Assembly (NCBI GenBank): GCA_023701285.1 | Contig: JAMPXH010000023.1 | Coordinates: 1-44,324 of the forward strand | Length of the DNA: 44,324 bases | Direction of reading: 5' to 3' | Source of the DNA: Candidatus Didemnitutus sp. | GTDB lineage: Bacteria > Verrucomicrobiota > Verrucomicrobiia > Opitutales > Opitutaceae | Part shown: positions 20,854 through 36,590 of the stretch, in pieces | Numbering within the stretch: the stretch's first letter is position 1 | How the letters are laid out: each line of letters opens with the position of its first letter | The notes under the pieces: model-generated | What the model was told of the DNA's origin: nothing | The model's database searches: none | The model's input: the letters and a program-made list of their open reading frames with translations, nothing else | Program-made: the position numbers and the translations under genes

Positions 20854-21846
20854 ATGGCTCGAAAGCTGCGTTTGGAGTATGCGGGGGCGTGTTACCATGT
20901 GATCAACCGGGGGAACTACCGGCGGGATCTGTTCGCGGGGCCGGGGGCGGCGGAGTCGTTCGAGGGCTGCCTGTTCGAGGCGGCGGAGCGTTTCGGGTGG
21001 CGGTTGCACGCCTATGTGGTGATGCGGAATCACTTTCACCTGGCGGTGGAGACGCCGGAGCCGAACTTGAGCGAGGGCATGCGGTGGCTGCAGGCGACGT
21101 GGGCGGCGCGGTTCAACCGCTTCCGGGGCGAGACCGGCCGGCCGTTCCAAGGGCGCTACAAGGCGCTGCATGTGGAGCCGGGACATGCGCTGGCGCAGGT
21201 GGCGCATTACATCCACCTGAACCCGGTGCGCGCCAAGGCGGTGAGCATCGCGCGGCTGCGGGAGCATCGCTGGAGCAGCCTGTATCATTTCATCCAACGC
21301 ACGCGTCCGGCGTGTCTGGAGGCCGGCGTGGTGCTGGCCGAAAGCGGTCGCCTGCCCGATACGGCGGCGGGGTGGAGGCGCTATGAAGCTTACCTCGGAC
21401 TGCTGGCGGAGGAGGACTTGAAGCGACGGAGCGAGCGCTTTGGACGGCTGAGTCGCGGCTGGATGGTCGGCTCGACGGAATTCCGGGCGAAACTCAAAAA
21501 GGAACTGCAAGGCGCTGGCTTGGCGGGCACGCGCTTCGGGTTGCTCGGCGCGGATCGCACGGCGCTCCGGGAGGCCCGGGCGGAGCTGTGGGAGGAATCT
21601 TTGCAGGCGGCCGCCAAGGCGCTGGGCATCTCGCTGAAAGCGCTGCCGGAGCAAGCGTCGGCGCCGGCGAAGGTGGCCTTGGCCTGCCTGCTGAAGCAGA
21701 CGACATCGGTGAGCAACGGCTGGCTGGCGGAGCGGCTGGGGATGGGCCAACCAGCGAGCGTGAGCCAGTATGTGCGGCGCTTCCGGCTGGCCGGAGGCAT
21801 GGAGGAGCGCGGCTACCGGGTGGCCTTGTCAAGAGTCAAGCCATGA
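20854..21846 (+). CDS. REP-associated tyrosine transposase (RAYT, Y1/HUH family)
   Basis: A 330-residue protein of the TnpA_REP class. The Y1 nuclease domain (about 1-140) has YHVINRGNYR, the HUH metal motif as RNHFHLAVE (His60, His62), PFQGRYKAL and VAHYIHLNPVRA; Tyr119 in the last is the likely nucleophile, with Tyr102 as alternative. The C-terminal half holds a helix-turn-helix-like segment (NGWLAERLGMGQPASVSQYVRRF), as in the longer RAYT groups. Such enzymes cut single-stranded REP hairpins. The stop codon and last seven codons lie in the right inverted repeat. The ATG was chosen because MARKLRLEYAGACYHV matches family N-termini. Confidence 0.9.
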   Translation: MARKLRLEYAGACYHVINRGNYRRDLFAGPGAAESFEGCLFEAAERFGWRLHAYVVMRNHFHLAVETPEPNLSEGMRWLQATWAARFNRFRGETGRPFQGRYKALHVEPGHALAQVAHYIHLNPVRAKAVSIARLREHRWSSLYHFIQRTRPACLEAGVVLAESGRLPDTAAGWRRYEAYLGLLAEEDLKRRSERFGRLSRGWMVGSTEFRAKLKKELQGAGLAGTRFGLLGADRTALREARAELWEESLQAAAKALGISLKALPEQASAPAKVALACLLKQTTSVSNGWLAERLGMGQPASVSQYVRRFRLAGGMEERGYRVALSRVKP

Positions 21847-32509: not shown

Positions 32510-33676
32510 CTACCAGGTGTCGACCGGTCCCTTGGGCACCGGGATGAATTCGCGCCGCACGCTGGCCGGGTCGTCCGCGTCGTCGCGCATGAACGACGCC
32601 ACGAGCGGATCGGGGCGGAAGCGCGGCAGCAACTCGCCGCGTTCGTCGCAGAACGGCGCGCGCCATTTCTCGAAACGGGCGACGATGTCGTCGAACTCCG
32701 CGCGCGTGCGCAGGCTGACGACCGCCTTCTTGAATTCCTTCGCTGGGCCAAAACGCTTCGCATACCACGCCGCCGGCTTGCGGAAGAGCCGGCAGCCGAG
32801 TTCCTCGCCGAAAACCTCGCACGCGAGGTCGAGATGACGGCGCATCACCGCGATGCGTTCGGCGAACCCAGCCTCGGCGGGCAGCACGCCGGTGCGCAGG
32901 TAGGCGCACGTGTCGCGGAAAATCCACGGATTGTAGAACGCGCCGCGTCCGATGCTCACGCCGGCGCAGCCGGTTTCTTCGAGCATGCGCTTAGCCGCGG
33001 CGGGCGTGGTCACGTCGCCGTTGCCGATCACGGGGATGGTCTTCACCGCCTGCACGACGGCGCGGATGCCGGCGAGGTTGATCGTGCCGCTGAAACCTTG
33101 GGCGCGGGTGCGGCCGTGGACGAAGATCGCGGCCACGCCCACGTCCTCGAGTGCGCGGGCGAGGTCGGGCGCGGTGAGGTTGTCCTCGTCCCAACCGAGG
33201 CGCATCTTGGCGGTGATGGGGATTTTCACCGCGTCAATCATGCCGCGGACGAGCGCCTGGGTTTTTTTGAGCTCGGTCATCATCGCCGAGCCGCCGCCGA
33301 TGCCGACGACTTTGCGGACAGGGCAGCCCATGTTGATGTCGACCGAGGCGATGCCCATCGACTCGACCAGCGCGGCGGCGTCGCGCATCTCCTCCGGCAC
33401 GGCGCCGAAGAGCTGGACGGAGAGAATTTTCTCGGCGGCGCAGGTTTGGGCAAGCTGGAGGGCCTTGTGGTTGCGTTCGAGGAGCGAGCGGGCGTTGATC
33501 AGGTCCGTCGTAGCCCAGTCGAGTCCGCCGATCTCGCGCACGACGAGCCGGAAGGGCAGGTTGGTGTAACCTGCCAGCGGCGAGAGAAAGAGATTCGATT
33601 CGAACTGGAGCGACCCGATGCGCACGCCCGGATGGTTGCTCGCGACGGCCGCATCGCAAATCAGAACGTGTCGCAC
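32510..33676 (-). CDS. dus: tRNA-dihydrouridine synthase (Dus family)
   Basis: A 388-residue flavoenzyme that reduces uridines of tRNA D-loops to dihydrouridine with FMN and NADPH. Motifs: LFLSPLAGYTNLPFRLVVRE, SVQLFGAVPEEM, SVDINMGCPVRKVVGIGGGSAMM with the catalytic cysteine, ITAKMRLGWDEDN, IFVHGRTRAQGFSG, and TIPVIGNGDVTTPAAAKRMLEETGCAGVSIGRGAFYNPWIF. The C-terminal extension of about 90 residues is longer than in DusB. The start at 33676 is a GTG; another GTG at 33625 (VRIGSLQF) fits the family N-terminus better. A palindrome lies 25 bp upstream, between it and the XRE-like gene. Confidence 0.9.
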   Translation of the reverse strand: MRHVLICDAAVASNHPGVRIGSLQFESNLFLSPLAGYTNLPFRLVVREIGGLDWATTDLINARSLLERNHKALQLAQTCAAEKILSVQLFGAVPEEMRDAAALVESMGIASVDINMGCPVRKVVGIGGGSAMMTELKKTQALVRGMIDAVKIPITAKMRLGWDEDNLTAPDLARALEDVGVAAIFVHGRTRAQGFSGTINLAGIRAVVQAVKTIPVIGNGDVTTPAAAKRMLEETGCAGVSIGRGAFYNPWIFRDTCAYLRTGVLPAEAGFAERIAVMRRHLDLACEVFGEELGCRLFRKPAAWYAKRFGPAKEFKKAVVSLRTRAEFDDIVARFEKWRAPFCDERGELLPRFRPDPLVASFMRDDADDPASVRREFIPVPKGPVDTW

Positions 33677-33700
33677 GATTCAACCGCGAGCCCGCGTCCC

Positions 33701-33721
33701 TGGTAACCTAATAGGTTACCA
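33701..33721. promoter_or_regulatory. Palindromic operator-like site 1
   Basis: Perfect palindrome with a central A: TGGTAACCTA, A, TAGGTTACCA. It sits between the XRE-like gene and dus, 24 bp before the dus start. Sites 2 and 3 are at 34081 and 34150. Confidence 0.75.
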
Positions 33722-33728
33722 ATTTAGT

Positions 33729-34082
33729 TCAAACCGACACGTCGCGCCCGGCTCGTTTTTCGGCCAACCAGTGCAGCAGGCGAAGAGTGAGCTCTGCGTC
33801 AGGGAGCCGGCTGCCGCCCGTCAGGAAATCGTTCAGGCGCTGCTTCGGAACGCCGAGGTAGCGGGCCAGCCGGACCTTGGCGCCGCGGGGCTTGAGTTCG
33901 GCCTGCAGTTGGGCAGCCAGCAGGTTCCAGAGCGGGGTCCCTTCGCCCGGACGCACGGTGTGATAGGACTGCCAGCGTCGCTGGCGGGTCTTGGCGCGCG
34001 CTTCGTCGACCAATTTCTCCCCCAACTCGAACAAGGCTCCTCCGATCTCGAGCCACATCTTTAATCGTGGGTGTGTCCTCAT
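33729..34082 (-). CDS. Small XRE-like DNA-binding protein
   Basis: A 117-residue protein. The C-terminal half contains a helix-turn-helix (VRLARYLGVPKQRLNDFLTGGSRLPDAELTLRLLHWLAEK) of the phage-repressor type. The N-terminal half is helical and basic (MWLEIGGALFELGEKLVDEARAKTRQRRWQ). The start ATG at 34082 overlaps the palindrome 34081-34105, and a third copy lies 68 bp upstream of the start; the first lies just behind the gene. This is the arrangement expected of an autoregulated repressor. Low-copy palindromes of this exact sequence suggest that it is the cognate operator. It is transcribed in the same direction as dus. Confidence 0.78.
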   Translation of the reverse strand: MRTHPRLKMWLEIGGALFELGEKLVDEARAKTRQRRWQSYHTVRPGEGTPLWNLLAAQLQAELKPRGAKVRLARYLGVPKQRLNDFLTGGSRLPDAELTLRLLHWLAEKRAGRDVSV

Positions 34083-34105
34083 TGGTAACCTAATAGGTTA
34101 CCAAT
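34081..34105. promoter_or_regulatory. Palindromic operator-like site 2, overlapping a start codon
   Basis: The most extended copy: 12-bp arms around a central A, core GGTAACCTAATAGGTTACC (34084-34102) with ATT/AAT flanks. It includes two bases of the XRE-like gene's start codon, so a protein bound here would block initiation or promoter clearance. Confidence 0.78.
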
Positions 34106-34149
34106 ATCGTCTACGCACGGCTGAATCTGGAGAAGGAAGGAAGCAAAAA

Positions 34150-34166
34150 GTAACCTAATAGGTTAC
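34150..34166. promoter_or_regulatory. Palindromic operator-like site 3
   Basis: GTAACCTA, A, TAGGTTAC; 8-bp perfect arms. Its centre is 65 bp from that of site 2, about six helical turns, so proteins on the two sites could face the same side. Confidence 0.7.
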
Positions 34167-34339
34167 CATGAGGCGGGGGCGGAACGGTGAAGGGGCGGGA
34201 ACGACTGGAGGATCGGCAGCGGGAAGCGGGCCGTGAGGAGGGCGGGGGCGCAGGCGCGGAGGGGCGGCGCGCAGGGATGTGGGGCGAGGGTGGAGAGAGG
34301 GAAGGCCGACGCCGACGGGCCGTCGGCCTGGACGGGGAC

Positions 34340-35488
34340 TCAGCGGGCGGCGAGGGCGCGCTTCAGGCGGGCGAGGGCTTCGGTGAGCGTGGCGCGGGTG
34401 CAGCCGAAGTTGAGGCGCACATGGGTGTCCTTGGCCGCGCCGAACGGCGCGCCGTCGGAAAAGCCGAGGCCGTGTTGCTCGAAGAAAGCGTGCGCGTTGG
34501 CGAGCTGGAGGCCTTCGATGTTCAGCCACGCGAGATAGGTGGCCTCGACGTGGGTCATCGCGATGCCGGGCAATTCGCCGCGCGCGATCGTCTGCTCGAG
34601 GAGATCGCGGTTGCCGCGGAGGTAGGCGAGAAGTTGCTGGCGCCACGGTTCGCCGTGGCGCATCGCGGCCTCGCCGGCGACGAGGCCGAGGACGTTGACG
34701 TCGGGCACGATGCCTTGCGCGGCGCGACTGAAGGCGGCGCGGAGCCTGGGGTCCGGCACGATGGCGAACGAGCAGCCGAGCCCGGGAATGTTGTAGGTCT
34801 TGCTCGGCGCCATGAGCGTGATGCTGCGGGCGGCGGTGGCGGGCGAGAGCGTGGCGGCGGGGACGTGTGCGACGTCGTCGAGCACGAGGTCGCAGTGGAT
34901 CTCGTCCGACACGAGCAGGAGGTTGTGCCGCTCGCAGAACGCGACGACCTGTTCCAGTTCCGCGCGCGAGAAGGCGCGGCCGACCGGGTTGTGCGGGCTG
35001 CAGAGGAAAAACTGCCTCGTGCGCGGCGTGACGGCGCGTGCGAGCGCCGCGAAGTCGAGTTCCCAGCGTCCGTTGCGCAGCACCATGGGCACGGGGACGG
35101 CCTTGCGGTGCTGGTTGGTGGGCGCGCTCATGAAGGGCGGGTAGACCGGCGTGGCGCAGAGGATCTCGTCGCCCGGTTCGCCCAGGGCGGCGGCGACGTT
35201 GAGACCGGTGACGAGGCCCGGGAGCCAGACGATCCAGGCCGGGTCGACCTGCCAGCCGTAACGCCGCGCGCAGTAGTCGACCGTCGCCGCGATGAGCGAG
35301 GGCAGGGGCTTGGCGTAACCGATCACGCCGTGCTCGATGCGCGCGCGCAGCGCCTCGATGACGGCGGGCGGCGCGGCGAAATCCATGTCGGCCACCCACA
35401 GCGGCAACACGTCGCGGCCGGTGTATTTCTGCCATTTCTGGCTGTCGCTGTGCAGGCGGTCGATCGGGCGGTCGAAATCGAAGTTCAT
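34340..35488 (-). CDS. PatB/MalY-type C-S lyase (PLP aminotransferase fold)
   Basis: A 382-residue fold-type I PLP enzyme. The N-terminus (DRLHSDSQKWQKYTGRDVLPLWVADMDFAAPPAV) is the MalY/PatB signature. SPHNPVGRAFSRAEL, LLLVSDEIHCDLV and MAPSKTYNIPGL follow, with Lys230 of SKTYN binding the cofactor, and HVRLNFGCTRATLTEAL holds the carboxylate-binding arginine. These enzymes split cystathionine or cysteine conjugates to release thiols, ammonia and pyruvate; in E. coli MalY also binds the MalT regulator. The frame is open 80 codons upstream, but the ATG at 35488 opens the family domain. No operon partner. Confidence 0.92.
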   Translation of the reverse strand: MNFDFDRPIDRLHSDSQKWQKYTGRDVLPLWVADMDFAAPPAVIEALRARIEHGVIGYAKPLPSLIAATVDYCARRYGWQVDPAWIVWLPGLVTGLNVAAALGEPGDEILCATPVYPPFMSAPTNQHRKAVPVPMVLRNGRWELDFAALARAVTPRTRQFFLCSPHNPVGRAFSRAELEQVVAFCERHNLLLVSDEIHCDLVLDDVAHVPAATLSPATAARSITLMAPSKTYNIPGLGCSFAIVPDPRLRAAFSRAAQGIVPDVNVLGLVAGEAAMRHGEPWRQQLLAYLRGNRDLLEQTIARGELPGIAMTHVEATYLAWLNIEGLQLANAHAFFEQHGLGFSDGAPFGAAKDTHVRLNFGCTRATLTEALARLKRALAAR

Positions 35489-35714: not shown

Positions 35715-36143
35715 ATGTATCGCATCACCCATTATTCCTATCCTCGTTCCGCCTCGCTCTTTCGCGGTGCGCGCAGCCCGTGGGCCGGCTTGGAGTCGGA
35801 AATCGATCGTCTCTTCGCGGCCACTTATGCTGAGGCCGCGACGCCGGCGGCGCCGCGCTTCCCAGTCGATCTCTACGAAGACAAGGACAACGTCTACGTC
35901 CGCGCCGAGCTGCCAGGCATCGCCCGCGAGGCCATCAACATCGAGATGGTCGAGGATTACCTGACGCTCAGCGCCACGCGCAAGCAGGGCGATGAGTCCT
36001 TCAGCCTCCAGCGTTCCATCGCGGTGCCGGAGAGTGTCGACGCCGAGAAGGTCAGCGCCTCCCTCGAGCACGGCGTGCTCACCGTCACGCTGCCGAAGCG
36101 CGAGCAGGCCAAGCCGCGCAAGATCGCCATCAGCGTCAACTGA
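35715..36143 (+). CDS. Hsp20/alpha-crystallin family small heat-shock protein (first copy)
   Basis: A 142-residue small heat-shock protein. The N-terminal arm (about 1-45) is YRITHYSYPRSASLFRG and a helix ESEIDRLFAATYAEA; the alpha-crystallin domain follows with PVDLYEDKDNVYVRAELPGIAREAINIEMVEDYLTLSA, the RSIAVPESVDAEKVSASLEHGVLTVTLPK strand pair, and the C-terminal KIAISVN tail. It holds unfolding proteins in an ATP-independent way. AGGAG sits 10 bp upstream of the ATG. The second Hsp20 gene follows 27 bp later, so both are one operon. Confidence 0.93.
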   Translation: MYRITHYSYPRSASLFRGARSPWAGLESEIDRLFAATYAEAATPAAPRFPVDLYEDKDNVYVRAELPGIAREAINIEMVEDYLTLSATRKQGDESFSLQRSIAVPESVDAEKVSASLEHGVLTVTLPKREQAKPRKIAISVN

Positions 36144-36170: not shown

Positions 36171-36590
36171 ATGACTCATCTCTTCAACCAGATCGTTCCG
36201 CGCCTCACCCGTTCGCTCTCGCGTCAACCGGAGCAGCCCGAGGCCACCACCACGCGCGAGCCGGAGTTCACGCTCAAGCCCGTTTACGAGTTGCAGGAAA
36301 CCACCGAGGCCTGGGGCCTCACCGTGCAGCTGCCCGGCGTGGCCAAAGACGGCCTCGAATTCACCGTCGAGGACAGCGTGATCCGCATCCAGGGCCGCCG
36401 CGCCTGGCGCGCGCCCGAGGGCTGGACCGCGCTCTACCGCGAGTCCGCCGATGCCGGTTACCTGCTTGAGCTCGAGCACGACCACTCCGTGAACGCGGAC
36501 AAGATCCACGCCGAGCTCAAGGACGGCGTGCTGCAGGTCTCGCTGCCGAAGGCCGAGGCTGTGAAGCCGCGCAAGATCACCATCGCGTGA
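36171..36590 (+). CDS. Hsp20/alpha-crystallin family small heat-shock protein (second copy)
   Basis: A 139-residue paralogue with a shorter, hydrophilic arm (SLSRQPEQPEATTTREPEF) and a complete crystallin domain: LKPVYELQETTEAWGLTVQLPGVAKDGLEFTVEDSVIRIQGRR, VNADKIHAELKDGVLQVSLPKAEAVKPRKITIA. In place of the usual arginine-rich loop it has WRAPEGWTALYRES. It may form mixed assemblies with the first copy. A good AGGAG lies nine bases before the ATG. The pair differ enough in sequence to be an old duplication. Confidence 0.93.
   Translation: MTHLFNQIVPRLTRSLSRQPEQPEATTTREPEFTLKPVYELQETTEAWGLTVQLPGVAKDGLEFTVEDSVIRIQGRRAWRAPEGWTALYRESADAGYLLELEHDHSVNADKIHAELKDGVLQVSLPKAEAVKPRKITIA

Follow-up and report, generated by a model that had tools for sequence, protein, structure and literature searches.

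REPIN/RAYT (REPtron) systems are described in PMC8049555 and PMC8266576, and the latter says that the RAYT protein and its repeat have co-evolved. PMC3733652 treats GTAG/CGTC REPs, intragenic REPs and O. terrae as a species rich in REPs, along with the Rickettsia palindromic elements (RPE), palindromic repeats lying in frame in the genes of working proteins; the term “helix-turn-helix” has 0 mentions in it.

The locus analysed here lies in a window of 44,324 nucleotides from Candidatus Didemnitutus sp. (the whole stretch under study), where a gene for a small helix-turn-helix (HTH) protein is accompanied by copies of a palindrome. It resembles REPIN/RAYT in having short dispersed palindromes, often in inverted doublets, copies inside genes, such as PMC3733652 describes for O. 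terrae too, and a gene flanked by the same repeats; but the partner here is an HTH protein without a transposase motif, and the repeat is present in tens of copies rather than hundreds. Compared by description, RPEs share with it the in-frame palindromic insertions in unrelated genes, whereas here a dedicated DNA-binding gene accompanies the repeat. With lambda-repressor-like and Cro proteins it shares a predicted HTH fold, a 17-bp two-fold site at the start of the protein's own gene and a correspondence between helix residues and bases; unlike them, its sites are dispersed through host chromosomes, and no phage context was found for it. A published pairing of an HTH gene with such a palindrome was not among the matches listed for the titles and abstract beginnings of open-licence PMC papers.

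The reading we favour, with a probability of roughly 0.6 and on the strength of sequence comparisons, is that a Cro/XRE-type dimer binds the 17-bp palindrome, regulates its own gene and is the partner of a co-evolving, REPIN-like repeat population. The dimer of the 117-aa protein would bind the palindrome as double-stranded DNA, and at the palindrome at its own start it would repress the HTH gene; the same palindrome, single or in doublets, would make up a small dispersed repeat population in the same genome; and protein and repeats would evolve together, as RAYT and REPIN do.

The HTH gene and its palindromes in the window

The 19-bp palindrome GGTAACCTAATAGGTTACC has two exact copies in the window and a third with one mismatch, in which the core (34150-34166) is exact (Table 1); these are the copies that the sequence-only reading had listed, and the 19-mer occurs in none of 100 dinucleotide-preserving shuffles of the window. 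Copy 2, which had been placed over the start codon of the regulator, lengthens to a perfect palindrome of 25 bp, which shares two bases with the start codon of the 117-aa gene (ATG at 34080-34082 on the minus strand). The other placements held as well: copy 1 falls in the interval between this gene and dus, 25 bp upstream of the GTG (33676) that we take as the dus start, and copy 3 begins 65 bp from the start of copy 2. The A+T-richer setting is also real, as 200-bp segments between 32500 and 35799 have 52-65% GC with a palindrome copy and 62-78% without one. Both centres of the doublet are TAATA, despite a layout common to five other doublets of the genome.

Table 1. Features at the HTH locus (positions in the window; “.” means no strand assigned).
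Feature	Position	Strand	Basis
Gene of the 117-aa Cro/XRE-type HTH protein, partner of the palindrome	33729-34082	-	Open reading frame; family in 27 of 61 genomes; predicted fold
Palindrome copy 1, between the HTH gene and dus	33702-33720	.	Exact 19-mer
Palindrome copy 2 at the start codon of the HTH gene (arms perfect over 34081-34105); probable operator	34084-34102	.	Exact 19-mer; inverted repeat
Palindrome copy 3 (one mismatch), which completes the doublet	34149-34167	.	Pattern match
Doublet unit (copies 2 and 3)	34081-34167	.	Layout as in five other doublets of the window's genome
dus (tRNA dihydrouridine synthase), a neighbour outside the element	32510-33676	-	PF01207, E 2e-77; neighbour in 6 of 94 loci

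The AlphaFold2 model of the 117-aa protein (mean pLDDT 85) consists of a long N-terminal helix and four more helices, and VIA-align matches its residues 43-114, with middling Z values, to HNF-1A (Z 8.0, the best row), lambda repressor chains (6.2-7.0; the lambda repressor-operator complex 1lmb, 6.2) and other XRE proteins. A lambda-repressor-like HTH domain (XRE/POU folds) is therefore predicted, in agreement with the XRE-like regulator first proposed. Foldseek returned nothing at E <= 0.001, and the protein itself falls below every Pfam and NCBIfam cut-off; a profile search of solved structures gave only weak matches, to the DUX4 homeobox (E 0.0085) and the Cro of prophage Pfl 6 (E 0.05). Among 30 family members, Pfam matches at E <= 0.1 were weak (YdaS_toxin in 22 and HTH_3 in nine; best 7e-5), PHROGs matches were to scattered repressors (best 2.7e-6), and PADLOC gave a single weak match. 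Across the family, columns with G, T, W, G, L, D, and E are invariant, and no transposase motif was recognised. The protein is one without catalytic function, a point against the reading we favour, since such a protein does not explain how the repeats move.

Matches to the protein were found in 27 of 61 genomes of Opitutaceae (54 matches at E <= 0.001). Across 288 genomes of the phylum, 16 match at E <= 1e-6, 14 of them in Opitutaceae and two, both weak, elsewhere in the class. A scan of named genomes gave 124 relatives, and the titles of the best 80 of the 124, which were fetched, name Opitutaceae, Opitutia, Opitutae, genera of these, plain Verrucomicrobia and one Akkermansiaceae MAG. The gene family is nearly confined to Opitutaceae. 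The ortholog in the sibling genome G040 (same genus) shares 72% identity with the 117-aa protein, and doublet, gene, and third palindrome are laid out there as in the window.

Two other assignments were considered and rejected. A phage or plasmid origin was set aside because searches of viral contigs, plasmids, and phages yielded no relative. A toxin-antitoxin system (HigA/YdaS-like) should have a constant partner gene, but when the flanks of 94 loci were compared over up to 1.5-3 kb, the largest shared neighbour cluster comprised seven loci, and dus adjoins the HTH gene in six.

Hairpins that act in RNA or as terminators, with the pairing between DNA site and HTH gene secondary, would account for the terminator-like scores of two of the three copies in the window (0.5 expected) and for the strong fold of the doublet, which as a single strand forms two hairpins (z -4.8). 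However, any palindrome folds, there is no Rfam match in 33400-34500, and the match between helix and half-site described below is not expected from an RNA function; we consider this explanation very improbable. No tRNA or tmRNA genes were found in the window. Further along it, at 35715-36143 and 36171-36590 (both forward strand), lies a tandem gene pair that resembles Hsp20-type small heat-shock proteins, by reading only.

Palindromes and recognition helices across the family

The family was compared at 110 loci, one locus with an internal stop in the gene (L091) having been dropped beforehand; removing 16 repeats of identical proteins left 94 distinct loci, and removing 12 more that lacked an assigned half-site or had a gapped helix left 82 for the covariation analysis. 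Around the 110 loci (not deduplicated), we counted 180 perfect 6-5-6 palindromes with any centre in the 54,473 bases that lie no more than 250 bp from the genes, vs. 219 in the 386,747 bases at distances above 600 bp. The centre is TATTA or TAATA in 115 of the 180 near palindromes, and neither is among the 12 commonest centres of the far ones. Under a relaxed rule (at least five of six pairs, centre NAWTN), palindromes stand on both sides of the gene at 81 of the 110 loci, on one side at 17 and on neither at 12; a similar rule gives 0.09 palindromes per 3.3-kb locus by chance (mononucleotide shuffles). Comparison of homologous loci, which the sequence-only reading had proposed, thus found palindromes flanking the gene on both sides at 68 of the 94 distinct loci and on one side at 15, the kind of site at its own gene that Cro/XRE autoregulators have; the remaining 11 loci, without a palindrome, count against the pairing.

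The palindrome is 17 bp long: a 6-bp half-site, a 5-bp centre (mostly TAATA or TATTA) and a second 6-bp half-site. The half-sites include GTAACC, GTAACG, GTAACT, GTCACC, GTCACG, GTCACT, GTCAAC, GTCATC, TTCACG, TTCACT, and TTTACT, and they vary with the recognition helix. The residue before the helix Q is R or K wherever base 1 of the half-site is G (76 of 76 loci) and P or A where it is T (6 of 6). The residue after the Q is R in 68 of the 82 loci, with C at base 5 in 62 and T in six, whereas among the 14 loci with another residue this base is A in 11, T in two, G in one and never C. Two further associations are looser. Of the 13 loci with L at the next helix position, 10 have A at base 3, but A is also found with I or V (5 of its 15 loci). 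Of the 20 loci with E two positions further, 17 have G at base 6, a base that comes with some other residue in 13 of its 30 loci. The shuffle z-scores for this covariation are not corrected for relatedness. On a quick family tree built without the helix columns, in which 17 of 79 inner branches are starred, the pairing of R with C at base 5 gives two independent pairs on starred branches (mean 1.8 concordant, 0 opposite) and six on the whole tree; the direction agrees with the covariation, with pairs too few for significance.

From the covariation we infer that the HTH protein probably binds the palindrome. Correspondences of this kind between helix and base are reportedly known as an “evolutionary code” for Cro, and the LacI family is said to have a code as well; with some 80 naturally occurring combinations of helix and half-site, the family would allow a protein-DNA code to be read and tested. 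The six loci in the dus neighbourhood have GTAACC (three), GTCACC (two) and GTCACG (one) as half-sites, and their helices differ; different half-sites and helices within one neighbourhood suggest that specificity may have been switched in place. The upstream palindrome is centred no more than 25 nt from the first in-frame start in 39 of the 74 loci that have both an upstream palindrome and a start codon, a position from which autoregulation is naturally read; taken together with the fold match and the covariation, it makes the autoregulation proposed from the window alone likely.

Dispersed copies, doublets and insertions in genes

The genome of the window (G000; 4.02 Mb in 220 contigs, 95% complete) contains 17 sites of the palindrome when up to three mismatches are allowed, with 0 for the reversed-pattern control. 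Twelve of these form six doublets (65, 66, 66, 66, 68, and 68 bp start to start) and the remaining five are single. G040 has 38 sites, 36 of them with the exact core, and many belong to doublets with a spacing of 45, 54 or 66 bp. A search at spacings of 35-90 bp gave 74 distinct doublets, of which 52 are inverted and 22 direct, judged by their centres. A spacer motif, CACTC..GAGTG, spotted by eye in G000 and G040, is not general, because no 7-mer between the palindromes occurs in more than seven of the 74. The outer base pair of the palindrome goes by species: it is T..A in 28 of 31 copies of G040 vs. 1 of 17 of G000, and G..C in 9 of 17 copies of G000 vs. 0 of 31 of G040.

The palindrome core has one open frame per strand, reading NLIGY on one and NLLGY on the other. 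We surveyed 30 loci for insertions in genes (10 of G000, covering all 17 sites, and 20 of G040, covering 31 of the 36 exact sites) and picked by eye 13 open frames, in 12 of the loci, as likely genes. All except L077 have Pfam matches, and the insertion falls within the matched domain or next to it (methyltransferase, 3Beta_HSD, tRNA_U5-meth_tr, DEAD_2, AAA_28, ABC_tran, SCO1-SenC, formyltransferase, and hydrolase). Doublets are present in 10 of the 13 frames, and their spacing is always a multiple of three (54 in seven, 66 in two, 45 in one); for the other seven doublets in the same loci, this is so in four.

Three genes carry an insertion at the identical place in G000 and G040: a 3-beta-HSD gene and two that we take, by reading, to be an RlmD-like and a methyltransferase gene. 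In the first two the spacers have diverged and the palindromes are exact or nearly so; the methyltransferase insertion has one recognisable palindrome in G000. Copies are also gained or lost between relatives: the insertion in UvrA of G040 is absent from G000, G052, and G003, and that in a helicase gene is absent from G000 and G052, with G003 having a different, longer insert there. Fmt and copA were tried as empty sites and are not clean. Divergence between the genomes compared blurs the insertion ends, where an IS or MITE would leave a target-site duplication. The protein of a copper-ATPase-like gene of G003 (L206) contains NPLGY twice; this is how a CAATG-type core reads, and the gene apparently carries a further in-frame doublet at a different site.

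The palindrome had been described as a dedicated operator, and this description does not survive the number of sites in the two genomes, the doublets or the copies in frame inside unrelated protein genes; the genome-wide search for the 19-mer, suggested along with it, found a palindrome that recurs and is not private to one gene. A broader form of the idea, in which an autoregulated transcription factor has a regulon and the dispersed copies are operators of the regulated genes, fits the palindrome at the HTH gene's own start and those copies that are intergenic. Copies in frame inside genes for unrelated enzymes, their arrangement as spaced doublets, and their gain and loss between relatives all argue against such a regulon, which we regard as unlikely.

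Gene presence, copy number and Y1 genes

We counted four exact palindrome types in the 61 genomes (reversed control, 0 in every genome). At least six copies of one type are present in 21 of the 27 genomes with the HTH gene vs. 0 of the 34 without it, where the maximum is five (Fisher p 2.4e-11, uncorrected for relatedness and with gene-adjacent copies included). Copies scattered without relation to the gene family had been named as an outcome that would refute the operator proposal; the copies are indeed scattered, but they are strongly tied to the HTH gene family. Fifteen of the 16 combinations of genome and type for which a gene of that type was fetched hold 4 to 68 copies: GTAACC in G000 (17), G040 (36), G022 (23), G035 (32), and G052 (13); GTCACG in G027 (36), G006 (68), and G026 (21); GTCAAC in G050 (11), G023 (40), G024 (28), and G052 (23); and GTAACG in G060 (18), G043 (18), and G010 (4). 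The exception, G033, has 0 copies because its centre, TATTT/AAATA, is excluded by the counting pattern.

We infer that the HTH protein matters for the upkeep of the repeats. Genomes with many copies and no intact gene of the same type among those fetched count against the pairing: for GTAACC these are G003 (16), G037 (12), G043 (17), and G046 (15, with a broken gene), and for GTCACG they are G022 (30) and G020 (19). G009 and G060 have 22 GTCAAC copies each, and both have further HTH genes beyond the fetched set.

The palindromes might instead be sites of a chromosome-organising or partitioning protein, spread through their use by the host, and the 3-beta-HSD and RlmD-like insertions, with conserved palindromes between diverged spacers, would suit this, as would a species-specific outer base in many copies. 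The distribution is patchy, however, with the HTH gene in 27 of the 61 family genomes, and one genome can carry several types (GTAACC and GTCAAC together in G052); we think this explanation improbable.

If a RAYT-type transposase (Y1, HUH) moved ordinary REP/REPIN elements and the HTH gene were a passenger, palindrome doublets, dispersal and intragenic copies would likewise result; Y1 genes are present in 53 of the 61 genomes. The window has one, a 330-aa Y1_Tnp (RAYT-like) gene at 20854-21846 (forward strand), the sole PF01797 match in its genome, with no family palindrome near. Yet Y1 genes are equally common without the HTH gene (30 of 34 genomes) and with it (23 of 27), and G023, with 40 copies of the GTCAAC type, gave no Y1 match at E <= 0.001 (95% completeness). 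The palindrome of the HTH family is found at 0 of 19 Y1 loci in six genomes (up to 1.5 kb), one of these loci (L052) having a single off-type, chance-like palindrome; and GTAG and CGTC each occur within 8 nt of the stem at 1 of 48 sites in G000 and G040. We class the element as REPIN-like in behaviour but outside REPIN/RAYT, because two defining features were not found: a tie of the repeats to a Y1/HUH (RAYT) transposase gene, and a stem with GTAG or CGTC at its foot. We therefore doubt that a RAYT-type transposase moves these repeats.

More tentatively, and with a fairly low probability, the element may be a selfish repeat that has no transposase: the repressor-like HTH protein, aided by nothing but replication or repair enzymes of the host, would keep and spread its own binding sites, and new types would arise as helix residues and dozens of dispersed palindromes change together. 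If the autoregulating Cro/XRE-type protein is the partner of the repeats, as in the reading we favour, then dispersed bacterial palindromes can do without a RAYT-type transposase and have a plain DNA-binding protein in its place, and this would be a case of a protein and tens of genomic sites shifting specificity together.

Six HTH genes (L127, L132, L134, L148, L123, and L140) share one neighbourhood; no palindrome was found at the first four, and L123 and L140 have GTCAAC, so that repeats may have been lost around a kept gene. The window's genome has a second member of the HTH family (L019; G000:C143:37-357, forward strand) at a contig end, with 42% identity and a TTTACG-like palindrome downstream, possibly a second, orthogonal set.
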